Of a stretch of DNA of 64,000 bases, positions 1,520 to 53,400 are shown piece after piece. A program made the position numbers and the translations under genes. Below the pieces are notes generated by a model that had not been told where the DNA came from, ran no database searches, and was given only the letters and a program-made list of their open reading frames with translations. Numbering within the stretch: the stretch's first letter is position 1; every line of letters starts with the position of its first letter. The DNA is from Gordius sp. MW1 (Eukaryota; Nematomorpha; Gordioida; Gordea; Gordiidae). Location of the stretch: positions 1,860,001 to 1,924,000 of the forward strand of contig OZ038532.1 in NCBI GenBank assembly GCA_964036665.1. Reading direction: 5' to 3'.

Positions 1520-2300
1520 ATTTTAATGGATGTTTAAATGCTCAGTAAAAAATTTAAAAATGCTCAGTAAATAAACTTGATAATGTTCAGTTATAAATAT
1601 AAAATTCTCAGTAATTTTTAAAAAAAATGCTCAGTAATTTTAATTAATAATACTCAATATTAACCTATTTAGCGTTAATATTTTATAAAAATAAAGTTAA
1701 ATTTAGTTTGTGGAAATTAAAATAGTTTTTTATTCTGGCTACATTAAACAGATTGGAGACCCGATTGTTAAATTTTTATCAATTAAAAGGTATCTTAGTG
1801 TCTTGAATTTTTTTCTCCTTCTCACCCTTCAAATAAATATGGCAAATTAGAAAAGCTATGAAAAGTAATGACCTATATTTCTCATTCTAAAATGTTCTGT
1901 CTCTCCCTTCTTAAATTTTAATAAGCTTGTGTTTATAATGTATTTATCTGCAAATGTATTGAGAGTTATCAATCTTAAACTTTATAAAGGCAAATAAAAA
2001 TTTTTATTTTAATATAATCACAAAATAATTATTAACAATTGAAAATAAAAAATAAAAAAATTTTGCTGGATATTACTTTCATCAAAAACCTAAATTTTTT
2101 TATATAATCAGTGTTAAATTATCTAAACCTACTATTACTTAACAATAAATGCTGATTTAGACTTTAAGGGTCTACCTCGCTTTCTTTATTGCCCCAAACT
2201 TTTGGCTTCTTTAGGTGGTTGGCAAAATGTAAGTTTGATTGCCAACAAAACCACATGCTTGCAAATATATTGTATAAAAAGCAACAAATGCACTTGCCTT
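1520..2300 (-). mobile_element. Partial copy of the TGCTCAGTA foldback-like element
   Basis: From 1536 to 1650 the motif TGCTCAGTA recurs about every 20-25 bases. The following ~650 bases match, in reverse complement, the interior of the element at 15463-16665. For example, the block around 1795-1915 matches 16240-16380, and the block around 2164-2270 matches 15850-15965. Similarity stops near 2300, before the second terminal array, so this copy lacks one end. The apparent frame at 2164-2379 is only a shadow of this repeat. Confidence 0.65.
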
Positions 2301-2499
2301 TAAAGCATTTTTCACAATCATTTGGAAATTGACATAACCAAAGCCAAAAATTCTTTGAAATTGCTAATGTTATTTTCACTAATCATCTGGTATACAATAC
2401 TCAGGATATTAAGATGTTTTTTGGCAGGCTATTAATATTATTTCTTGCAAATTCATAACCTTCTGTCCATAGCTTCAAATTTTTCATAGGTTTTGACAT

Positions 2500-2660
2500 T
2501 TTTTGGAGTATTTATATTCAGAGGACTAAGTTTTAACCTTGTCCAAAGCCATGACCTTAAACCTACTAAGTGGTAGGCGTTCTTTCAGTGAGAATTCATC
2601 TTTATTAGCGTATTAGCTGATTCTAAGGCATTAATAATTCATTGATACCTAACCAGGCGG
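2500..2660 (+). repeat. Dispersed repeat shared with 39630-39775
   Basis: About 150 bases around the string CCTTAAACCTACTAAGTGGT match 39630-39775 in reverse complement, including a downstream 'gctgattctaaggcatta' block. It encodes nothing recognisable. The other copy lies just upstream of the RLE LINE, so it could be part of that LINE's 5' region, but a 5' fragment alone would be unusual for a LINE insertion. Confidence 0.5.
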
Positions 2661-13433: not shown

Positions 13434-15462
13434 CATTTATCAACGGTTTTAAAACAGGCATTAAAGTTAATTGTGATTCATTTCTGGGCACTGAAGCATT
13501 ATATAAACTAATACCCCATATTAATAAAGTAAAGATAACATGATAAAAAGCTGGCTTAGCCAACATAGTCTATAAAAGAGATATTTTCTCGCTATTTTAG
13601 AAAACTTTGTCCAGAATAGGAAAAGACATTCAGTTTCATTACTAAAATAAATATAATAGATTAATAGATGATTAGATTATATTATTATTGTTAAAATTGA
13701 TTTAATAATAGTATCACTTTTATTCATATAATTAAATATATATTGTTATTATGATATTTAAATATATAGCGCAACCTAGTCATTATTAAAAACGTTGCAA
13801 ACTTTCAATTATTAAACTAAATGCGTCTATGTAAATATTTGTAGATATATCTCTTTGAATCATACATGAATCATTATGGGGCATTAATTATATGTTAATT
13901 CTTACTATCGATTATTTACTTAAATGTCACTTAGGGGAATTAATTTTTTAAATTTATTGAAATTTGTATAGATTTTATTAGTGTTGTAAAGCTCAAAATG
14001 GCCACTAGATAACCAAGTCATATAAGAGCAGTATTGTATTTCTTAAGTAAAGCTCTTGATAAACTTTAAGTAATATTTATATTAAAAATAACTAATTTTC
14101 TTAAAATATTTGTTCTATCCAATCGATTTCCAATTTGACCTGATAAAATTCTTTTGATATATGAATTTAGAATAAAACAAATATGCCGTTTGGTTAAAGA
14201 TGCGAACTAACTACTGTTTGATCAATTATATGTAACAAATATCTAAAGTGGCTGGGTATGATTTATTATTCTTTCATATCATATGTCAGAAAATAATTGG
14301 AAAACAAGTGTCATTTAAATTCCATATTATTCGAGTCTAAAAGGCTCAAACGAGATTTTTGCCCTGGAATTAATAAATGGCTGATCAAATAGATAGGAAA
14401 CATGGCATGATGGTTATAATGTTTACAATTAAAACTTTCTAGTTATCTTTTGCAATAAAACTCATTTGCTTGATTTACCTCGCGCTTTATTACAGTTTTG
14501 CAGATGTTGTTGAACCTTTGTTTTTACAAAAGTGAATGCCTACCTAGTAATGATATAACTTGTTAACAGAAAGATTAAGCATCGTTTTTTATTTAAGAAT
14601 ATTTTTGAAATATCTAAGATGGCGATATTAAACTATTTAACTTGCCCAAAATTTAGAAATTTCATCTAGATTAAATATTGTTTGCTTGTTGATTATATAT
14701 ACTTTTAGAAAAGTCTAGTTGAACATGAAAGTGATATAATATGTAAATATTTATGTTATAAATTGGAAATATGCATGAAATATTTGGGAGATATAGCTAT
14801 TAATTTATTGGTAAATAATAGGTTTAAATAACTATTAAGTTAACTACCATTAATTGATTATTTTTGTAATATCTAAAGCAATTAATAATTAATTAAACAC
14901 AATTTGTTTGCAAATGCACATTTTTAATTGCATTTCCTTAAATTGAAAGTTGGGAAAATCAATTTCATATTAATAATAAAAGCGTTAGTTTTGTGATATA
15001 TTAAATTGAAAAACGCTACAAAAGCTCGCTTTAAAAATCACATTAAACAAGTTATGATTGATATTTTTAACTATGAATTTAGATTGATAATATGCAATTT
15101 CCATTAATATAATAGACAACCTCTACAGAAATATATGAAAGACTTATTTCAAAAATTCTTTTATAAAAAACACATTACATTCAAAATATGTAGGTAAATA
15201 TAAAAAACCTTAATGGAATTAAACGTGTGTATTATATATAAACATAAAAATTTTGTTAAACTTGCTGACTCAATAATTCTGGTAGGCATTTTTGAATTAA
15301 ATTAATTATTTATTATATCCTATGTATATATGATAAATTTTAATAAATCCTATTATTATCGCACAATGTTCTAAATATTTAATATCCTATGTTTGAGGAT
15401 TCGACCTATTTCCATAATTTATCATAATAGAAATGATTGAATTAAAATGAGAAAAAATTATT
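13434..15462. other. AT-rich stretch, nothing recognised
   Basis: Two kilobases of AT-rich sequence with stops in all frames and no repeat, RNA or coding signature that I can support. Confidence 0.6.
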
Positions 15463-15640
15463 GTGCTCAGTAATTAATTCATTTTTTGCTCAGTAGAATA
15501 TTCAAATGCTCAGTAGAATAAACAAATGCTCAGTAGAATAATTAAATACTCAGTAAATAATTTAATGCTCAGTAATTTAATTATTTGTTCAGTATAAAAT
15601 TCATTTGTTCAGTTTTTTATTCAAATCTTGCTCAGTAGTT
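15463..15640 (+). repeat. TGCTCAGTA array, direct orientation
   Basis: Spaced copies of TGCTCAGTA alternate with AT-rich spacers such as 'gaataaacaaa'. Unit length is about 18-24 bases. Confidence 0.8.
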
Positions 15641-16512
15641 TTTTTATTTATGCAAAGTAACTAAGAATTAGTTTTTCATAAAATCCCTGAGCGAGATTCG
15701 AACCTGAAATATCTGAGTAAGAGTCTTGCGTGTTTCCCATGGAGTCAAAGTGCTTGACTGGAAAGTGGTTTATTTTCGTTTATAAACCACTTAAAATACA
15801 TTTTATTTCATAAACTACCTCTTCCAAGTGCAATTGTTCATCGTTTTATAAACAATATATTTGCAAACATGTCGTTGGGTTGGCAATTAAACTTAAATTT
15901 TGCCAACCACTTAAAGAAGCCAAAAGTGTGCCTATAGGGCAAAAAAGGAAGCGAAGCAGACCCTTAAAGGCTAAATCAGCCTTTATTGTTTAGTAATGGT
16001 AAGTTTAGATTATTTAACATTGATTATATAACAAATTTTAGGTTTTTGAAATTAAAGTTGTCTCCAGCAAAATTTGTCTATTTTTGCATTTTAAATTGTT
16101 AATTATTATTATTTATCTGTATTAAATATTTGTGATTATATTCAAATAAAAAATTTATATTTTTCCTTTATAAAGTTTAAGATTGATAAATCTCAACAAA
16201 ATTTGCAAAAAAAATAAATTATAAACATGTAAAATTTAAGAAGGGAAAGGCAGAGCATTTTAGAATGGGAATTATAGGTCATTACTTTTCATAGCTTTTT
16301 TAATTTGCAATTTATTTATTTGAACGGAGGACTTATAGGGATAAAATTCAAGACACTAAGATACCTTATAACCTTTAAAAATTTAACAATCAGGTCTTCA
16401 ATCAATTTAATTTAGCCAAAAAATTATTTCAATTTCCTCACACTCAATTTAGCTTTATTTTTACAAAATATTAGTGCTAAATAGATTAAGATTGAGTATC
16501 ATTTATTAAAAT

Positions 16513-16665
16513 TACTGAGCATTTTTTTGAAAATACTGAGCATTTTAGATTTATAACTGAGCAATATTAAGATTATTTACTGAGCATTTTTGAATTTTTT
16601 ACTGAGCACATTAATAAAATACTGAGCATATTTTACTGAGCATTTTTGATTTTTTTACTGTGCAT
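16513..16665 (-). repeat. TGCTCAGTA array, inverted orientation
   Basis: Spaced copies of TACTGAGCA, the reverse complement of the left-end unit, ending at a TACTGTGCA variant. Confidence 0.8.
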
Positions 16666-17252
16666 TTAAATAACATCCTATTAAAATGCATTTGTTTTGA
16701 TTTGTAAGCTATCGACGCAAATGGAATCGATATATATAAGCTTCTAATTATAATTACATCAAGGCTGCAACGTGGAATATTGTAGGATAAAAAGGGGTCC
16801 CTCTTTTAAGGGATTAGGTTATTTTCTAATTTAATTACCTATATTGTGTGGAATGGGAGCAGGATTAAGCAGTGACAAAAGAATAAAATATGGAGCCGTA
16901 AAATTAATTAATTTAGCACGTTCTACTATCGAATCAATGCAGATTTAAAAACATAGCAAGGTAATAAACCTTATTGCTTAATAGCTAAAAATTATAATAT
17001 AGTTTTTTATAAACGATGTATAATTATTAATTTTTAACAGTTAACTAACCACAAGTGGTCAATGATCTTTTTCAATTGTTGATTTAAAGTTCTGAAATAG
17101 GACGTTTTTGTATCGCCATATAACTTTAAGACTTTCTTTGATTTATATAAATAACTTAGTTTACAAAATTTATTATTCTTGTCAAATTTCTGCAAAAAAT
17201 ATATTTTATGTATTGTTTATCAAGGCTCATTTTGACTTTTAATAGTTTATGC
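16666..17252. other. AT-rich stretch, nothing recognised
   Basis: No gene, RNA or repeat seen in these ~590 bases. Confidence 0.5.
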
Positions 17253-17415
17253 CATGGGCGTACCCAAGAGGGGGGGCAGGGAGGGGCGGCCACCCTCTAA
17301 ATCCAAATATTTGTTGAAATTTATTAAAATTATGGTCAATTCTAAAAAAGGTTTGTTTTGCCTTTCCCTAAATCATTATTGCCCCCCTCTAATTTCAATG
17401 CTGGCTACGCCCATG
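17253..17415. mobile_element. Short MITE, CATGGGCGTA family
   Basis: 163 bases bounded by CATGGGCGTA and its inverted copy TACGCCCATG. G-rich (GAGGGGGGGC) and C-rich (GCCCCCCTCT) tracts lie just inside the ends. Related copies lie at 35192-35319, 39783-39937 and 45792-45957, and a lone end at 21905-21943. The apparent frame 17254-17451 is non-coding. Confidence 0.7.
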
Positions 17416-18057
17416 GTGCTCATTTGTCAAACTTTATTTAAATTTTATTAATCATTTTATTTAGGCCTAAATGTCAAAACCTTCCATGAGTCTCAATTTA
17501 ATATAAAGAATAAATATTATCCCGCAGTATTTGTTAGAAGATGAGGAGAATATATGAGATTGATGATAAAAAGAGGAAACTTATACTTAAATAGACTTTT
17601 ATGACAGCACTAAAAATCAAAACGGGTATTGTCAACATTAGAGTTTACCAAAACAAATGCTTGGTGGTTTAATAAAAAACGTAGAGAAATATTTATGAAA
17701 AGTTTTTATCTTATTTGTCAGAACCTTACGACAATATTAAAAAGAACAAAAGAAGAGCAGCGATTTTTAAAATCTTAAAATATAACACTTATTAAGTCAT
17801 CAGAATACAAAGCTTGTCACTTTAAATATTGAAAATTAATTGAGACGAACACAATTTGAATAAATTAAAAAATAAATATGTAGAAAATAGACATTTAATA
17901 ATAGTGTAATATTAATAAAAGGATAAAAACCCATAATAGGCATATTATTTTTATTAAAACCTTTTGATGCCTATCTGATTGACTAAGATCTTATTTGTTG
18001 CTATGCAATTTATGGGCTCGTTTTTTGTTGTCCGTCCGTCGTCCGTCGTCCGTCCGT

Positions 18058-18124
18058 CGTCCACCAAGTTATTGGCGCCAGCTTTATGACCTGGAGGTCT
18101 TCAGTTCAAGCCAAGGAGAGGACG
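18058..18124 (+). ncRNA. tRNA-Leu-like SINE head (copy 1)
   Basis: The ends CGTCC and GGACG can pair like an acceptor stem. 'accaagttattggcgccag' resembles the D-arm/A-box region of a type-II tRNA such as tRNA-Leu. 'cagttcaagcc' is a B box with one mismatch. A run of T follows. It is a decayed tRNA-derived head, not a working tRNA gene. Confidence 0.5.
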
Positions 18125-18164
18125 AATTTTTTTTTAAATTTTTTTAAATTAAATTAATATTTTG

Positions 18165-19315
18165 TTCTTGTTAATAACATTGATAATATGAATTTTTGAC
18201 CGTCCGCTGGCTACTGACCAATGAAAAAAATGACCATTGGCCAAATAAATCGAAATTTTATTTTTTCGTCTTTGAATTGGGTATATTAGGTTAACATTAA
18301 TAAATACCCTATGCCCTTTCCTACAAGGGCCTACGCCTCTACTAATATGGGTCCTTATGCCCCTACAAAAGCCTATGCCTTTACTAATGGTGCCCCTACA
18401 AAAGCCTATGCCTTTACTAATGTGGGTTCGAATCCCGAAGAGGGCAAAATTTCTATTTTTTTTTAATTAAATTAATATATTGTTCTTGTTAATACCATTG
18501 ATAATATGACTTTTTGACAGTGTTCTGGCTACTGACCAATGAAAAAATGACCATTGGCCAAAGTATAAATCGAAATTTTTTTTTCGTTTTTGAATTGGTT
18601 AACATTGCTAATTACCCTGTGCCCTCCCCTACAAATGCCTATGCCCCTACTGATATGGGTCCCTGTGCCCCTACAAAAGCCTATGCCTCTACTAATGTGG
18701 GTTCGAATCCCGGAGAGGGCAAAATGTTTATTTTTTTTTAAAATTAAATTAATGTATTGTTCTTGTTAATACCATTGATTATATGACTTTTTGACCGTCC
18801 GCTGGCTACTGACCAATGAAAAAAATCACCATTGGCCAAAGTGTGAATCAAAATTTTTTTTTCGTTTTTTTTCAAATTAATATATTGTTCTTGTTAATAC
18901 CATTGATAATGTGACTTTTAGGCCGTCCGTTGGCTGCTGACCAATGGAAAAAATGACTATTGGCCAAAGTGTGAATCAAAAAATTTTTTTCGTTTTTTTT
19001 TCAAATTAATATATTGTTTTTGTGAATACCATTGATAATGTGACTTTTTGGCCGTCCGTTGGCTGCTGACCAATGGAAAAAATCACCATTGGCCAAAGTG
19101 TGAATCAAATTTTTTTATCGTTTTTTTTGACTCGTATGTATTTATAGACCGTCTATTGTTACTGACCAATGGAAAAAAGTGATTACTGGCCAAATTGTGA
19201 TTTGAAATTTTTTTTTCGTTTTTTAATCGTCTCTTATGTATTTATATCCTTTTTGACCATGTCTTGGCTACTGACCAATGAAAAAAATGACCATTCGCCA
19301 AATTGTTTTTAAATA
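18165..19315 (+). repeat. Degenerate tandem tail units with CCAATGG/CCATTGG hairpin
   Basis: The string 'ggctactgaccaatg' or a close variant recurs at about 18209, 18528, 18803, 18924, 19063, 19155 and 19267. It is usually preceded by 'ttgttcttgttaatacca' and 'ttgaccgtcc' and followed by 'accattggccaaa'. Each unit contains a short inverted repeat (GACCAATG...CCATTGGCC) around an A-rich loop. Between some units lie ~33-base repeats reading 'cctacaaaagcctatgcc' (18310-18430, 18620-18700). Nothing is encoded. Confidence 0.75.
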
Positions 19316-19649
19316 TCTTTCTAATTATTTTTTAAAATAATAATGATATTAAATCAAAATTTAAACCATATGTGTATTTTTCCATAAGGCAAAAGTAAAA
19401 AAAATTTTGTTTAGAAAAAATAAAATTCGCATTTTGTCAAAAATATAATCAAAAAAATTACGTGTGTATATAAACTTTTTATAACTGCTTTAAAGTCTTT
19501 GATGTAACTTAACGATAATATTTTAACCATTTAAATTGTAATCGAAGAACAGGAGGGCAATTATTAATATCACGTGGTCGATCATAGAAGCATATTAATT
19601 GTTATGCAATTTATGGGCTCGTTTTTTGTTGTCCGTTGTCCGTCCGTTG

Positions 19650-19720
19650 TCCGTTACCCTTCAAGTTATTGGCGCCAGCTTTGTGACCTGGAGGTTCAGG
19701 TTCAAGCCCAGGAGAGGACG
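19650..19720 (+). ncRNA. tRNA-Leu-like SINE head (copy 2)
   Basis: Same head as 18058-18124 but with an intact B box GGTTCAAGCCC at 19699-19709, followed by a poly-T run. It is probably the less decayed representative. Confidence 0.5.
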
Positions 19721-19822
19721 AATTTTTTTTTAATTTTTTTAAATTAAATTAATATTTTGTTCTTGTTAATACCATTGATAATATGAATTTTTGACCGACT
19801 GTTTTATAATTTTTTTGCGGCA

Positions 19823-19840
19823 CCCCCCCCCCCCCCCCCC
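19823..19840. repeat. Poly-C tract, 18 bases
   Basis: An uninterrupted run of 18 C, followed by 'tcc' and a T run. Length in the assembly may be unreliable. Confidence 0.9.
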
Positions 19841-19966
19841 TCCATTTTTTTTATAATAATAAATTGGTATGAAAAATAAACTAGTATGAAATTTTTTCCC
19901 GTAAAAACACCAGATTGCCCCAGGAAGTAGATATCATTCTACATAATATTAAGGGTGTTATTTAAC

Positions 19967-20520
19967 TGCTAAGTAAATAATTACAAATTGCTAAGTAATT
20001 TATGCTAAGTATTTTAATCAAAGTGCTAAGTATTTTATTAAAAAACGCTAAGTATTTTATGCTAAGTATTTTAATCTAAATGCAAGTATTTTAATCTAAA
20101 TGCTAAGTATTTTAATCTAAATGCTAAGTATTTTATTATTAAATGCTAAGTATTTTAATCTAAATGCTAAGTATTTTAATCAAAATGCTAAGTATTTTAA
20201 AGGAAATGCTAAGTATTTTATTTTTAAATGCTAAGTTTTTTATTTTTAAATGTTGAGTTTTTATTATTAAATGCAGAGTTTTTATTTTGATATACTTAGT
20301 TTTTTTATTAAAATGCTAAGTATTTTATTTAAAAAATCTAAATTATGAATTTAAATCAAAATGCTGGGTATTAAAAAAATATAAGATAATAAGGTTTTAA
20401 AGCTAAAAAGGACAAAGTTTTAATGGTAATAATTTAAAAAAAAATGTTTAATTTTTAAAAATGCTAGGTTTTCTATTTTGAAGTGCTAAGTTATTACTTT
20501 AAAATACTAAGTTTTTTAAT
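19967..20520 (+). repeat. TGCTAAGTATTTTA array, direct orientation
   Basis: The most regular part is 20080-20270, where consecutive units are 21, 22, 21, 21, 21, 22 and 22 bases long, about two turns of B-DNA. Units decay after 20300. The frame at 20483-20668 is part of the decayed array. Confidence 0.85.
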
Positions 20521-21319
20521 TCAAAGTTTTATTTATGACACAAAAAAGTGTTTAAATTTGAAGTTAAGTTTTAATGGGAATTATTTTAATGAATTACCAA
20601 AATTTATAGTTGAAAAATATAATATTTTAATTTTATATTGTTATAATATAAAAAATAATTTATTTTAGATTTGAATAAAAAGATTATGATTATTTATTAG
20701 TAGGTGAAGAAATACCCTTCATGTTCTATAATGACTACACATAAAATAATCTAAATAGCCAATAGGATAATTGATAGAGATTTTATTCAACTACAATATA
20801 TAATTATAATAAGGGTGGCATGTATATATATTTCCTATAAATTAATTTAATTTATTAGTGTTTTTTGATTTCCTGACCACCCCATAGCCGTCCCCAAACT
20901 TTTTATAGAAATTTGATATTTGGGCATAGGGGAATCCCCATGGTGAATTTGGTGATTATAGCTGGTCGCAAAGTAGGTTTTTTTGGTTTTTCACAAATTT
21001 GACCACAAAACTTTAACCACAAAAGTTTGAGGTTTTCGGTTACATTTTTCTGGTAGAGAATTTTATAAGGATTAAAATGCACTAAAAATTACGAAGCTAG
21101 CACCAATACTTTTGAAATTATGGGAATAATAGTAAAATTTGTAAAACGCACTTGAGCGTGATTTTGACCATTTTAGCGTCCATAACTTAAAAATTATTGG
21201 CCCAAAATGGCTAAAATTTTCAGAGATTACTATTTTCTATAGGGTCTAAATTCTCACAAAAAATCAGCTCGATCTGAGATGGTGGGCCGAAACCGTTTTG
21301 ATATGTCATGGAATGGCTC

Positions 21320-21720
21320 ACTTAGCATAATTTATTTAAATACTTAGCAAATGATTTAAATACTTGGCACAATTTATTTAAATACTTAGCAATAATTTAA
21401 ATACTTAGCAATAATTTAAATACTTAGCATAATATATTTAAATACTTAGCATATAATTTAAATACTTAGCAAAACATTAAAATACTTAGCAAACAAATAA
21501 AATACTTAGCAAATAAATAAAATACTTAGCAAAACAATAAAATACTTAGCAAAATTTATTTAAATACTTAGCAAATGAATAAAATACTTAGCATTTGAAT
21601 TTAATACTTAGCATTAATTTAAATACTTAGCAAACAAATTAAATACTTAGCAAATGAATAAAATACTTAGCAATGACGCTTAAAAATACTTAGCAATTTG
21701 AATAAAATACTTAGCAAATA
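21320..21720 (-). repeat. TGCTAAGTATTTTA array, inverted orientation
   Basis: About 20 copies of TACTTAGCA separated by 9-13 AT-rich bases, in opposite orientation to the array at 19967-20520. Confidence 0.85.
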
Positions 21721-21904
21721 ATTTGTTGTGTAATATTAATACTTTTATCATTAATCATACTTGTCCAAAATTTTCTGCTAGAACCCATCAGGGTTTTATA
21801 ACTAAATTGCCGGCCAAGGCCAGCCAAAACCCTTTAATTGCCCAATTTACTAATTTTAGGTCGAGACCCTTTTTTTTGCTCTCAGGGAAAAAATTTTAAA
21901 TCTG

Positions 21905-21943: not shown

Positions 21944-22127
21944 GTTTTAATTATTTTTTTATTAAAATACAATAAAATATATAAAACGCAATAAAATGTT
22001 ATATTCCAAAGCATTTTTAGCTTTTGATGGTCGCCCTCTTCGTCTTTTTTGACCTATACTAATATTTTTTGCTTTTAATTTAATTGTACCTAGTGGTAGC
22101 TATATATAAGTAATGGATAAAACATAT

Positions 22128-24839: not shown

Positions 24840-27210
24840 TTAACTTTTAAAAGCACTAATTTTTGCAAAAGGTACGGATAAAACATAATAACAGCGTTGA
24901 AGGAAACGATTTAAAATCCCTTTAAAATTTTCTCTAAAGTGATGGCTCATGAGGCAATAAATGACAGTTGAAAGGGTAACTGGCGAGAATTGCGAAATCT
25001 AAAACGCATCCCACAGCTTGCGCAATTTCGTAGTTAATAATGCGTAAATTGAAGGTATTGTCTAATATGTGGCAAATAAACAATAATCCAACGGGAATTT
25101 CAACTATCAGTGCCAACGATACCACCACAATGAGCATCAATGTCGTCTGTTTCGTTTGCTTTATCTTACGCCAGTTCCTAACCTTGGCTTCGGTGATCTT
25201 AGTTTCCACAAGGGGGGATTCTGGAGCGGGTTTAATTTTTGTTATAGGAGTATCGTTTTTTTGCATTACTTCAGTAACGACTCTAAACGAGTCATTAGAT
25301 GGAGGAATTGAGTGCCGGAGAGATTCGTGCAACGTAACTTTTTCATGATTCCGTCTCTGACCTTTAACATCGTATTTTACTTTTGATTGGCGGCCAGAAA
25401 AGGAAATTTTACTAGCTATTCTGTTATTCATTGTTTTGTCAATGGCGTTAACATGCTCCGAGAGACAGTTATTTTGATTATTAGAACCATCGGTTAAACT
25501 AACATACTTTTGATCATTTGCACCCTCATTTTTTATTAATTTTTGGCAGTTGGTCTCCAATTCTATTGTTTCGTGGCAATCTTGCCGGATGTCCCATTGT
25601 ATATGATATTTCAGTGAAGTGAAACGCATATTAATTTTATTTTTTTTGGCCCCTATGTTTTTTCTATGATTATTTAATGTTAGTCGTTTTGCGTCATCCT
25701 TCTCACCTTTTAACAGCGGGGCTGTCGGTTCATTATGCGTTCCGTAATTCTTCACTGTTCGAGCACGGAATTGTGATCGCCTTAGCGTTGAAATGAGCAC
25801 TGTATTCAAAACAACCATGATAATACATGGGACAAGATGTACAAAAATGACCCGAAACCAGAAATAAAAATTAAAGTATAAATTTTTCCAGCCTATAATC
25901 CATGATGGGTACCTATAAGCGCAATGTATTTCACCGCTTTGAAATATATCAGTGTGATTATTTGTTGAAAAAAACACACCAAACTGTCGAAGGTTTATCG
26001 GTCGGCCCAATATGTTTAGCATCCTTTTATTTGCGTTAATTTTTTCACCTACGATTAAACGTTTGTCGTCAATCTCTTTCAAATCATCATTAATTTGGCT
26101 TGGAATCGGACCAATCGGCATTGTTAGATTATACACATTTACTGAATCGCGAATATGATCGTTGTTTGTCACTATTTTGTCAGACTTGGTTTCCCTTACT
26201 TGAAAAACTTTAATATCACCGGGGTATAATTTGACCTTTGGAGGCACAACTTCTTTGCTATGCCATCTTAATACTACTGGGACATATTCGTGCTCATAAA
26301 ATCTTGGGAGATTATATAGTACTGAAAAGGTCATAATGAAAATAATGACGTAAAAAATTGTTTTTAATGACCGCCAGTAGTACTTAGTCAAGGAATAAGA
26401 CATCGAAATTGATAGCACTTGGCCTACTTCAACAGGTTTTCGCATGAAAATGTTAGATGGGATATTCCACCAAGGCTTTGACTTATTTATGCCTCTTAAA
26501 ATATTCATCTTTAAAGGATCAGGCTGTGCGGAGTTAGTCATGATCTCTTTATCGTTTGTAATGTTTTTCGTAGTGTTAATTTTATATTCTGTACCGTAAT
26601 TACTCGTCGTCTGATGCTGAGTCTTCGCTGTTTGGGAGATTTGTTGACGAGCCATTCTGACCTTTGTCAGGAGAGGGGGGTTTACGGTTCTACAAACACA
26701 AATATACCTGTGAACAGCGAGAGATAGGACGAGCCAAACCGAGGCCGTGTGAAAAATAGTGGGTAAGTAAATGGTGGCGTAATCGTGAACCTTACACCAA
26801 GCCACTCCTATGGGAAACTTGTAACGTTGAGCGGCATAGTAATATATAAACCATGGGAGTGGACTTACTGCTGTTAACATATCGGCCAAAGCCATGGCCG
26901 CCAACAGAACGTTTGTCGGAGATATCATGTTGGATCTCAATAGAATGACAATGATTAAACTGTTTGTTAGTAGAATAATTAGTATGAGAATGGGTGAAAT
27001 ATACCCGTACAGGGGCAAGGCTAGGGCCAAGGGCTTACTATCAAAACCTTCTATATAAAAATTTTCTTCCTCCCTTGGAATTTTTTGTTTAAATTCAAAC
27101 GGTGTATGGTCAAATAGTATGTTATCATATCTATCATATACATGAGTTGAATGATAAAGAGCCATAATCGTAGGAGGTGTGAGGATTAAAGGTGACGAAA
27201 TTGAAATCAT
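24840..27210 (-). CDS. SPR/MIP-receptor-like GPCR with long loops, frameshift in TM7
   Basis: Seven-TM receptor, probably for a neuropeptide, acting at the plasma membrane through G proteins. The open frame runs back to a TTG at 27321; the first ATG codons are at 27210 (chosen) and 27165. Numbering from 27321: TM1 ~101-127; TM2 with SPTNVLLAAMALADMLTAVS; Cys176 and Cys467 as the likely TM3-ECL2 disulfide; TM3 with YLPTIFHTASVWLVLSLAVH and HRY in place of DRY; TM4 ~318-338; TM5 with FWFRVIFVHLVPCIIMVVLN; TM6 with TTLMLIVVVSLALIVEIPVG; TM7 with DFAILASYPFN. ICL2 (~110 residues), ECL2 (~145) and ICL3 (~215) are very long. After SYPFN the frame shifts and stops at 24934. One frame over, a plausible tail VIYCLMSHHFRENF continues to a stop at 24840. 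The motifs PTIFHTAS, WFRV.FVH and TTLML...EIP suggest the sex peptide/myoinhibitory peptide receptor family. No introns are seen. Confidence 0.8.
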
Positions 27211-27321
27211 GATTTCCCCAAATATTAATTTTAATTTCAAAACACAATATTGGTCTTTATTGTGCGTGAGGTTAGGATAAATGTTATTCCTTAAAGTTTC
27301 AAGCTGAAACCGAAATGGCAA

Positions 27322-38900: not shown

Positions 38901-39629
38901 TTGTGCCTTTATGTAATAACATAAGTCTGTTTATTCTCATATTTAAGTGGTATACAGCAAAAGTAGGTTGTTATGCAATATAAATTTAACCCTTTAAGGT
39001 GAGATCAGGGAGTACATAAATGAGCATAGTAAAATTTTATATTGCATAAATGAAAGATAATATGAAACATAAAATTGCATTTATCTCAAATTTTGATAAT
39101 CTGTTTTAAAAAGATTAAACCATTTATCCAGGGAAGATCAGGGTTTATTGGTATGAATATATGGTATTGCCGGAATAGCAGATGTTTTCCTATAAGTTTT
39201 ATTGGGATTTCATGAGATATAATTGGTATAGAAATATTGTAATTAAATAAACTACTATAATAGTCTTGCTAAGGAATAAGGATGAAGAAATAAATGTGAT
39301 GTAAATCAATTGGGAAATATAGAAAGGTTATTTAAAGCATATTAATCTTTTAAATTAATGCAAAAAAAAAGTAATTTTAGTTTTACAATGGCTAAATTGT
39401 GCAGAGCCTTTTAAGTATACATAATTTAGTTTATATTATCAACATCATTTGATGAAAAATAAACTTGTATTGGTTATATAGGATTGAATAAATCTTGAAG
39501 TTTTTTGAAGCTGGTTATATATGTTAAATATTAATGGAGAGATGTGTTGAAGTGTAAATCTTCATGTTTAAAATGTAGTATGTCTTAACGCGGAATTTGG
39601 TATGAGGTGTATAGGCAGTGAACTCCCAG

Positions 39630-39775
39630 TACAAATAATGCCTTAGAATCAGCCAATAGGCTCATAAAAGGTGAATTCATTTAAGAGAACGCCTACCACT
39701 TAGTAGGTTTAAGGCCATGGCTATCGATATGATTAAGACTTGGTCTTCTGAAGATAAATATTCAAAACAATTTGT
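39630..39775 (-). repeat. Dispersed repeat shared with 2500-2660
   Basis: Matches 2500-2660 in reverse complement over ~150 bases, centred on CCTTAAACCTACTAAGTGGT. It lies between the RLE LINE and the next MITE. Confidence 0.5.
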
Positions 39776-39782
39776 CACAATC

Positions 39783-50499: not shown

Positions 50500-53400
50500 T
50501 AAGGAATTGCTATAGATGAGGTAAGTCACATGCAATAAAGCAATGTCCAGCATTTTTAAAAGAATGTTCCATTTGCCATCATAAAGGACATTTTGCAAAA
50601 ATGTGCAGGACCTCAAACAAAGTGAACCAGATTATTAATACAATTGGCAAACTTTATGACTTTAATCACCTTAAACCATACATCCATGTAAGGATAAATC
50701 AGAAAAATTTCAAGATGTTATATGATACTGGCTCATCAGTATCATTAATCAACAAGAGTATCTACAACATGTTAAATTCACCTAAATTAACACCATGCCC
50801 AAGATAAAAGCTTTTGGGAATAGTCCAGTTCCTATATGTGGAGAAACACAGGTCTATGTTAATTTAAACAATAAAACTTTAAAGTTAACAGCTATTGTAA
50901 CTACGGTAGAAGATGATGCCATATTTGGGTTAAACTGGATGGAAGCCTTTCACCTACAACTTCCTCATCTAGTTAAAATTAATGCTATAGAAGAAAAACC
51001 TCAAAACATAGAAGAGGAATTGGTTGAAAAGTATACGAATGTGTTCAGTGATGGCACTGGGTGTATTAAAGATTATGAGGTGAATCTTTTTGTAAAGGAA
51101 GAAGCCAGAGCCATAGCAGTGCCTGCACGAAGGGTTCCTTTCCCTTTAAGGAATAAAGTTGAAGAGGAAATCAGAAGATTATTGGACGAAGAGATAATTG
51201 AACATGTTGATCCTGCAACAACACCAATAACATGGGCAACTCCTATTGTAAATGTATTAAAATCAAATAAGTCCATTAGAATCTGCCGAGATTTTAGAGT
51301 GACTATTAACCCCTTCCTAACTTTAAACAACCATCTACTTCCGACATTTGACGATTTGATTCTGAAGATCGCAGGAGGGCAAAAATTTACAGTAATTGAT
51401 TTACGGGATGCCTATCTTCAGATGAAGGTCGAAGAAAAGTCGCGACATTATCTCACTATTGCAACATATTTAGGTTATTATCGATATAAACGTCTTCCAT
51501 TTGGACTTTCAATAGCGCCAAATTTATTCCAATGTTATATGGAAGAATTATTAGAGGGGATTCCCCATACTGGGGTACTTCTAGACGATATCATAGTTAC
51601 AGGAGTAAATGAAAAGGATCACCTGAAAAATCTCAACGAGGTACTAAAAAGGGTACAGGACGCTGGTCTAAAAGCAAAGAAGGAAAAGGTTAAATTTTTC
51701 CAAAATTCCGTTAAATATTTGGGACATGTGATCGATGCAACAGGGATCCACCCAACTCAAGAGCGAGTGGAAGCCATTGTTAATTTTCAACAACCACAAA
51801 ACAAAAAAGAACTACCTTTTCTTTTTAGGACTAGTTAATTATCAGGAGAGGTTCATTCCAATGTTACACGAAAAATGCGCACCCTTGCATGCATTGACGG
51901 GCTCATCAATAGGTTGGAAATGGACGGCTAAAGAGCAGAAGATTTTTAACGATGTTAAACTGATGCTTTCAACGTCAAATACTTTGGTACCGTATTCAAC
52001 CTCATTACCGTTATACCTAACGGTAGATGCTTCTGAAACTGGTGTAGGTGCTGTACTATCACACTTATATGCAGACGGGTCCGAAAGAGCTATTGCGTAC
52101 GCGTCCAGGACGTTAAGCGAGTCCGAAAAACGATACTCTACAATTGATCGGGAAGCGCGAGCTATTGTGTTCGGTGTTCAGAAATTTGATCAATACGTAC
52201 GGGGTCGAAAATTTGTATTGATGACGGATCACAAACCTCTAGAGAGATTATTCGGGAATCATCGGGATTTACCGAAAGTGATCAATAATCGATTAATTCG
52301 ATGGGCTTTATTTTTAAATGGATATCAATACGACATAAAATACCGATCAGGAAAAAACAATCAATGCGCTGATGCATTGTCAAGACTGCCAGATCCAAAA
52401 TACCTTGAAACGGATCAGATCAATCACGTAGGATTACTTATGTTAGATGAATTAAAGTTAGATTACGAAATGCTAAAAACATCTAAGATCCTTTTTGTCG
52501 TGAATTAATTTCAGCGATTAACCGTGAATGGCGGTTTGATTTAAAAAAATGCCGTTTTGACATGAAAACGTACTAGAAGGAACTGTCATTTGAAGATGGA
52601 TTATTATTGTGTGGAAATCGGTTAATAATACCGAGGAACCTACAAAATTTAGTTTTAAAAATATTACACCAAGGACACCCCGGTATTACAGGAATGCTTA
52701 ATTTAGCCCGGTATTATGTTTGGTGGCCCGGAATGGACAAGAGTATTGATTTGTTTGTAAAGGAATGTGACGGTTGTCAAGAAGGCCGACAAGCCGAACA
52801 AGAAGTTCCCTTATATTCTTGGTCCGTACCTGACCGTCCTTGGGATCGAGTTCATATAGATATTGCCGGACCTGTCGAAGGAAATTATTGGTTGGTTTTA
52901 ATTGATGCATTATCGAAATGGGTGGAGGTAGCCACACTATCGTCGATTAAAGGACCACAAATTGTGAGGCAGTTACGAAATTGGTTTTGCAGGTTCGGTA
53001 TTCCCTTGCAAATAGTATCGGACAATGGACCACAATTTGTCGGTGAAGAATTCACAAAATTTTGTAACAACAACAACATTAAGCACGTAACATCCACTCC
53101 ATATCACCCCAAAACAAATGGATTAGCTGAGAGAATGATCCGAACGCTAAAATCAAGATAATGGGCAGCAAGAAAATCAGGGGGAGAGAAAGAATTATGC
53201 CTTCAACAAATAATTATGACATACAGGAATACATCTCAGGCAACCACGGGTAAAGCTCCGGCGGAATTGTTGTTGGGAAGAAGAGTAAGGACAGCGTTGG
53301 ACCTTATTCGACCAGATCCGAAAGAAAAGTGGAAGGAGAGATTAGCTAAACAAAAGAGCTATCATGACCGAAAAGCATGTTATAGGGAATTTAATCTTGG

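Follow-up and report, generated by a model that had tools for sequence, protein, structure and literature searches.

Inverted core arrays in the genome of Gordius sp. MW1 are very likely the arms of non-autonomous MULE foldback elements from two sister families

Two blocks of inverted short repeats lie in a 64,000-nucleotide stretch of the nematomorph Gordius sp. MW1 (C6:1860001-1924000, hereafter the window), and we analyzed them together with their relatives on the 12 contigs (211.8 Mb) that all genome-wide counts below cover. It is very likely that the blocks, denoted as elements 1 and 2, represent two sister Mutator-superfamily (MULE) foldback families whose non-autonomous members are moved in trans, whose arrays most likely serve as transposase sites and whose array core may have switched together with the enzyme. 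In this explanation, both elements would be internally deleted copies with little or no gene. Each has two different short termini, A and B, and each terminus is followed by an array of a 9-bp core that faces inward. The gene is lost from the window copies, and their termini are the same as those of copies that bear a MULE transposase.

The exact core TGCT[A/C]AGTA occurs 21 times on the plus strand and 24 times on the minus strand of the window, where about 0.6 would be expected on the plus strand from base composition. In elements 1 and 2, all plus-strand cores belong to the left arm and all minus-strand cores to the right arm, and the three exact cores outside them all lie within a partial third copy. 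Genome-wide, two cores 21 bp apart (TGCTMAGTA-N12-TGCTMAGTA) were found 327 + 320 = 647 times, whereas the reversed control pattern was found 0 times. The inverted arrays of the preliminary description are thus real, and the one-base difference between the cores of the two blocks was borne out as well. Its coordinates were right to within about 15 bases; based on the termini and the target duplications, the exact ends are now 15449-16678 and 19953-21730, and each block makes up one whole DNA transposon of the cut-and-paste type. The elements and their parts are as follows.

15440..15448, no strand: left copy of the target duplication of element 1, AATTAAAAT; the right copy, TATTAAAAT, is at 16679-16687 and is 8/9 identical
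15449..16678, plus strand: element 1 (family 1), very likely a non-autonomous MULE foldback element, core TGCTCAGTA, B end left and A end right
15449..15463, plus strand: terminus B of element 1; the family form is GAGAACAAATTATTG, and the window copy has one A for C
15464..15659, plus strand: B-arm array of element 1, core TGCTCAGTA, mostly 20-bp steps
15769..15990, plus strand: decayed C-terminus of a MULE transposase (SWIM finger region, basic tail) in element 1, one internal stop
16513..16664, minus strand: A-arm array of element 1, inverted cores TACTGAGCA
16665..16678, minus strand: terminus A of element 1, reverse complement GGATGTTATTTAAA
19944..19952, no strand: left copy of the target duplication of element 2, TAATATTAA; the right copy at 21731-21739 is perfect
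19953..21730, minus strand: element 2 (family 2), very likely a non-autonomous MULE foldback element, core TGCTAAGTA, A end left and B end right
19953..19966, plus strand: terminus A of element 2, GGGTGTTATTTAAC
19967..20322, plus strand: A-arm array of element 2, core TGCTAAGTA, mostly 21-22-bp steps, decaying inward
20834..21315, plus strand: foreign piece of 460-483 bp inside element 2, also present in L040 and L041
21319..21716, minus strand: B-arm array of element 2, inverted cores TACTTAGCA, mostly 19-22-bp steps
21717..21730, minus strand: terminus B of element 2, reverse complement CACAACAAATTATT

Since the A and B ends swap sides, the two elements are oppositely oriented in the window. 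With BLAST, 30 loci per family were fetched; these are the best matches rather than a random sample, and the window copies (L009 and L039) are included. Both termini were present in 25 of 30 family-1 loci and 26 of 30 family-2 loci. Terminus A reads GG[A/G]TGTTATTTAA and terminus B reads [GAG/CAC]AACAAATTATT, and the two differ within an element, while each has a homologous counterpart in the other family and is followed by an array that faces inward (left and right ends are GAGAACAAATTATTGTGCTCAGTA and ACTGAGCATTTAAATAACATCC in family 1, GGGTGTTATTTAACTGCTAAGTA and TACTTAGCAAATAATTTGTTGTG in family 2). The inverted repeats are subterminal, consisting of the arrays, and the outermost 14-15 bp differ between the two ends. 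An exact terminus followed by its first core was found genome-wide at 234 A and 288 B ends, and at none in the control. When the 98 A ends listed on C1-C4 and the 99 B ends listed on C1-C3 were paired within 8 kb, all 32 pairs faced each other at lengths of 0.5-6.2 kb, with 0 in any other geometry; two of the 32 have one B end in common.

The two-ended elements are flanked by 9-bp duplications. In family 1 (n=25), these matched at 9/9 positions in 17 elements, at 8/9 in 6 and at 4-5/9 in 2; in family 2 (n=26), they matched at 9/9 in 23 elements and at 8/9, 5/9 and 3/9 in one each. Mismatched pairs, in which the flanks were taken from different elements, gave 9/9 in 0/600 and 0/650 cases. The flanks of the 51 elements were then joined with one copy of the duplication and matched against the available sequence, and 8 of 51 matched across the junction. 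Clean single-copy empty sites were located in the window for L012 (39290-39490), L024 (43922-44210), L062 (19079-19285) and L066 (18154-18493), and these matches are uninterrupted repeats, i.e. paralogous sites. Near-clean sites were found for L037 and L050, and the matches for L026 and L040 were poor. As the target is present once in the empty sites, the elements inserted precisely with a 9-bp duplication. Two segments of L072, a family-1-like transposase locus, match the joined flanks of L050 (525-699 and 2484-2603), and the former is the empty site. The empty sites of L062 and L066 derive from dispersed, locally repeated sequence at 18000-19290 and 19600-19800 of the window, in which GGTTCAAGCC and GTTCGAATCCC are words that we take to be tRNA-like box B motifs.

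A Pfam MULE search of the genome gave 128 places, a few of which adjoin arrays, and pieces of MULE transposase adjoin A and B ends at L069 and L070 (PF10551 at 1.4e-6 on an L069 piece). With one transposase piece as the query, 151 matches were obtained, with 61 places listed on C1-C4. Of 33 pairs of a transposase piece and an exact end less than 3.5 kb apart (29 of the 61 listed places on C1-C4), 30 had the piece running in the B-to-A direction. Only 6 of 63 MULE-domain places on C1-C4 were near a listed exact end, and 6 of 7 such pairs were consistent with the direction from B to A. As to the larger copy with a transposase, for which the preliminary description had advised looking, L074 (family 1, 2138 bp), L071 (family 2, 2099 bp) and L073 (a third family, 2498 bp) each contain transposase pieces between two termini that are flanked by a perfect 9-bp duplication. 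The frame of L073 is uninterrupted and comprises three exons with two GT-AG introns (39 and 38 bp), spliced to 521 codons. The 521-aa protein scored above the curated Pfam cut-offs for MULE (PF10551, 6e-10), Transposase_mut (PF00872, 3.6e-6) and SWIM (1.3e-4), the SWIM finger being C-terminal, while no FLYWCH (PF04500), THAP or PHD hit appeared in it up to E 0.1. A C...C...HxH pattern near the N-terminus was noted by eye in the alignment. By eye, we also take LHADATY, ISDTAG...CWAH and NNALESTNR to be the contexts of the catalytic triad, and the tail KRRRGRPSK is presumably AT-hook-like. The 9-bp target duplications (8-11 bp, usually 9, are typical of the superfamily) and a MULE/Transposase_mut enzyme inside an element with the same ends place the elements in the Mutator superfamily, and their long inverted arms of short tandem units in variable number are foldback-like. 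The locus L070 (C2:16218001-16227000) is rearranged: transposase-bearing copies stand in tandem at a 2951-bp period with an inverted neighbour and with termini in an unusual same-strand order. At 2900-6000 of L069, a family-2 transposase copy is split by a retroelement frame that by eye looks Ty3-like, with integrase and reverse transcriptase-like parts.

The window copies retain different amounts of this gene. Element 1 holds a relic of residues 450-520 of the 521-aa protein (57% identity over 74 aligned columns, E 1.7e-19, one stop), and a transposase relic, mostly of residues 460-520, was inside 30 of 30 fetched family-1 loci. In family 2, a remnant was inside 22 of 26 two-ended elements, each in the B-to-A direction; 21 of the 22 fall within residues 201-249, and L046 holds more. 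No transposase hit was obtained in L040, L049 or L053 among these 26, or inside element 2 of the window, where the single hit lies outside the element at 22007-22078. The earlier statement that neither element encodes protein thus stands for element 2 and fails for element 1. Because the gene remnants differ between the families, families 1 and 2 are separate deletion derivatives. The foreign piece in element 2 has at least 44 matches, elsewhere often as inverted pairs some 2-6 kb apart, and is probably the long terminal inverted repeat of a different transposon family.

The core is nearly uniform within each family. In family 1, TGCTCAGTA accounts for 281 of 289 TGCTNAGTA cores and TGCTAAGTA for 0, whereas in family 2, TGCTAAGTA accounts for 769 of 790 and TGCTCAGTA for 0, and no outward-facing TGCTNAGTA was found in either arm of the 51 elements. 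The third family has TG[C/T]TCAGT in its A arm, mostly at 22-bp steps, and a more degenerate B arm; TG[C/T]TCAGTT pairs at 22-bp steps occur 17 times genome-wide and 0 times in the control. Since other combinations of end and core exist, for example GGATGTTATTTAAATGCTAAGTA at two listed places, there are more families than 1 and 2. Beside AAGTA ends, transposase pieces were 49-85% identical to the family-2 query (19 places, query excluded), and beside CAGTA ends, they were 34-51% identical to it (9 places, with short remnants at several), where identities and end types were matched by hand.

With regard to number and spacing, element 2 has 35 core sites at no more than one mismatch (15 + 20), of which 30 are exact (12 + 18), fewer than the roughly 40 copies first counted. 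In family 1, the commonest steps were 20 in B arms and 14, 20-22 or 44 in A arms; in family 2, they were 21-22 in A arms and 19-22 with a mode of 20 in B arms, which are the right arms. Two of the four arm sets have recurrent 14-bp steps. The 21-22-nt unit described before holds for the left arm of element 2. We also considered helical phasing, by which all sites would share one face of the DNA. The mean resultant lengths at 10.5 bp were 0.37, 0.32, 0.37 and 0.30, compared with 0.40, 0.46, 0.33 and 0.30 for gaps drawn evenly from 18-24 (SD, standard deviation, 0.03-0.04 per arm set), so that three arm sets were at or below the random-gap null and the remaining one (0.37 against 0.33) barely exceeded it. 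The best periods in a period scan differed per arm set (10.0, 11.0, 10.9 and 10.2) and mainly restate the 20- versus 22-bp steps, and phasing was not supported.

Considering that the window elements have the same ends and duplications as copies that bear a transposase within those ends, they would be moved in trans by a MULE transposase supplied by longer relatives and read from B towards A, and their insertion duplicated 9 bp of the target. The arrays are probably multiple transposase-binding sites, which may mark and pair both ends; many sites per end would raise occupancy and give avidity to a short word. As to the one-base core difference, recognition by the enzyme may have changed before the sites were replaced. 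Of the two possibilities raised in the preliminary description, the non-autonomous foldback-like transposon has the support of the common ends, the 9-bp duplications, the empty sites and the relatives with a transposase, and a protein-binding array, the reading that we favor for the arms, is plausible.

Tandem units with slippage-like variation of spacing and number would also be expected from ordinary satellite or minisatellite arrays in chance inverted pairs, yet exact shared termini and strict polarity speak against them and the duplications and empty sites refute them, so that their probability is close to nil. The arrays could instead be promoter, replication or host-factor sites, or products of passive slippage, with the transposase requiring only the outermost ~25 bp. 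In line with this, a terminus with its first core recurs exactly hundreds of times, the cores show no helical phasing, and Muta1 transposase mobilizes elements whose terminal inverted repeats (TIRs) differ in length (PMC5225508). However, one core is kept in both arms with the same one-base variant throughout each family, the transposase pieces diverge along with the core variant as matched by hand, and Galileo offers a precedent for transposase binding in internal repeats (PMC3688188); we regard this alternative as unlikely, though it is the strongest of the rivals. It is a good deal less probable that the arms mainly form hairpin RNA that feeds small-RNA silencing, with the array shape as a by-product. 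Such a role has been discussed for MULE TIRs (PMC6446971), and the arms do match each other in inverted orientation at 69-79% over about 70-200 bp in family 1 and 69-78% over about 150-390 bp in family 2; yet step lengths and spacers differ between arms while the cores are near-constant, so that the core, and not the overall complementarity of the arms, is the shared signal. Finally, long internally repeated TIRs are known from Galileo, a P-superfamily element (PMC3688188), and Rehavkus combines a 9-bp duplication with a minisatellite (PMC6446971), but the 521-aa protein has MULE and SWIM domains and gave neither a THAP nor a PHD hit up to E 0.1, and there is hardly any chance that the elements belong to either type.

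Several observations do weigh against the MULE foldback explanation. By the fixed rule, a recognizable duplication was absent in 2 of 25 family-1 and 2 of 26 family-2 elements, although in one of these, L060, inspection by eye shows GTTTAGTAA at either flank, with four additional bases at the end. The geometry was wrong in 3 of 33 pairs of transposase and end, two in the rearranged L070 and one beside a separate insertion, and in 1 of 7 pairs of MULE domain and end. The small share of MULE-domain places close to listed exact ends means that many of the MULEs in this genome come from other families or from decayed copies. An intact transposase of families 1 and 2 was not found among the few copies fetched, and the N-terminal zinc-like domain was not recognized by Pfam, its AlphaFold model from a 3-row alignment being useless at pLDDT 35.5. 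In addition, the core stands above the spacers in sequence logos, but the search pattern partly builds this in.

Elements of this kind are already known. The closest architecture found is Tm1, a Mutator/Foldback element of Meloidogyne nematodes (PMC3169594), which shares asymmetric terminal motifs, inverted arrays of short units in variable number, 9-bp duplications and the division into one transposase-coding MULE class and many non-autonomous derivatives. Both the Tm1 unit CGATTCAGTATCGC and the family-1 core TGCTCAGTA contain TCAGTA, which is a lead and not a test. Tm1 has ~14-bp units, 1-9 per arm, a GA-rich motif D and a transposase with Pfam FLYWCH, in contrast with the 9-bp core, ~20-22-bp steps, up to ~20 sites per arm and the SWIM domain without a FLYWCH hit described here. 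Our elements do not have the Tm1 unit, as steps are mostly 19-23 bp and the core TGCT(C/A)AGTA shares only TCAGTA with it, while motif D was not searched for. In Aedes aegypti, the active Muta1, which PMC5225508 assigns to the type 2 foldback elements, and further MULEs likewise have 8-9-bp duplications and a terminal motif followed by a subterminal tandem array (9 x 12 bp in Muta1), and Muta1 has an intron-containing transposase of similar size and hundreds of derivatives. It differs in its 12-bp units with 3-4-bp spacers and its imperfect-palindrome terminal motif, since our spacers exceed the core and our termini differ. Muta1 is a precedent for activity in a MULE with a terminal motif and an array.

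The Phantom group of animal MULEs (PMC6446971) resembles our families in 8-10-bp duplications, variable TIRs, FLYWCH or SWIM in some members and a minisatellite in aphid members; unlike its N-terminal FLYWCH finger, no FLYWCH hit was obtained here, and this comparison is by description. Galileo of Drosophila also has long internally repeated arms, which contain several transposase-binding sites by footprint and shift assays, but its transposase is of the P-superfamily THAP type and not a MULE; binding at the tandem repeats in Foldback and Phantom arms was called untested in 2013 (PMC3688188). Rehavkus shares the 9-bp duplication, with a minisatellite near one end where our arrays are at both, and its transposase has a PHD finger (PMC6446971), of which none was found here up to E 0.1. 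The available text of PMC13359780 makes no mention of tandem repeat, subterminal, SWIM or FLYWCH. The suggestion of an undescribed transposon class fails, since the enzyme belongs to the MULE transposases and foldback MULEs that carry tandem repeats in subterminal position have already been published (Tm1, PMC3169594; Muta1, PMC5225508). No publication with both cores was found in a literature search, which left Repbase outside. Compared with the published elements, Repbase again excepted, the families look new in their longer arms, longer spacers and one-base core switch.

Further traces of the transposase lineage and other features are present in the window.

1528..2603, minus strand: partial third copy (family 1) with A end GGATGTTTAAATGCTCAGTA and three exact cores, or four if one mismatch is allowed
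2138-2281 and 2499-2603, minus strand: transposase relics in the partial third copy
22007..22078, minus strand: separate transposase relic outside element 2, 22/24 residues identical to the third family
39598..39779, plus strand: separate transposase relic around the catalytic glutamate

The partial third copy, placed at 1520-2300 before, exists, but it starts at 1528 and its relics reach 2603; its B end followed by a core was not found anywhere in the window. The relics at 22007-22078 and 39598-39779 are of the same transposase lineage and are not within recognized elements. A rhodopsin-family G protein-coupled receptor frame (24934-27321, minus strand) and reverse transcriptase/RNase H frames (50795-52508, plus strand) were also identified; the receptor frame fits an animal genome. 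The nematode SL1 sequence gave no match, and neither did the controls of that search.

Taken all together, these families illustrate how non-autonomous MULEs keep their arms while the gene shrinks to a family-specific remnant or gives way to a foreign piece. With hundreds of ends, sister cores one base apart and the uninterrupted frame of the third family, they form matched sets for testing whether the arrays are bound. The most interesting feature is the core switch of one base, C or A, through nearly all sites of both arms. We tentatively suggest, as a possibility that we hold at somewhat less than even, that sister families arose as a one-base core change (TGCTCAGTA, TGCTAAGTA and TG[C/T]TCAGT in the third) was installed in nearly all of up to ~35 sites, each family answering only to its own transposase. 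If this is true, recognition could drift step by step in arms with many sites while function is retained, and the repeated origin of foldback arms would be easier to explain.

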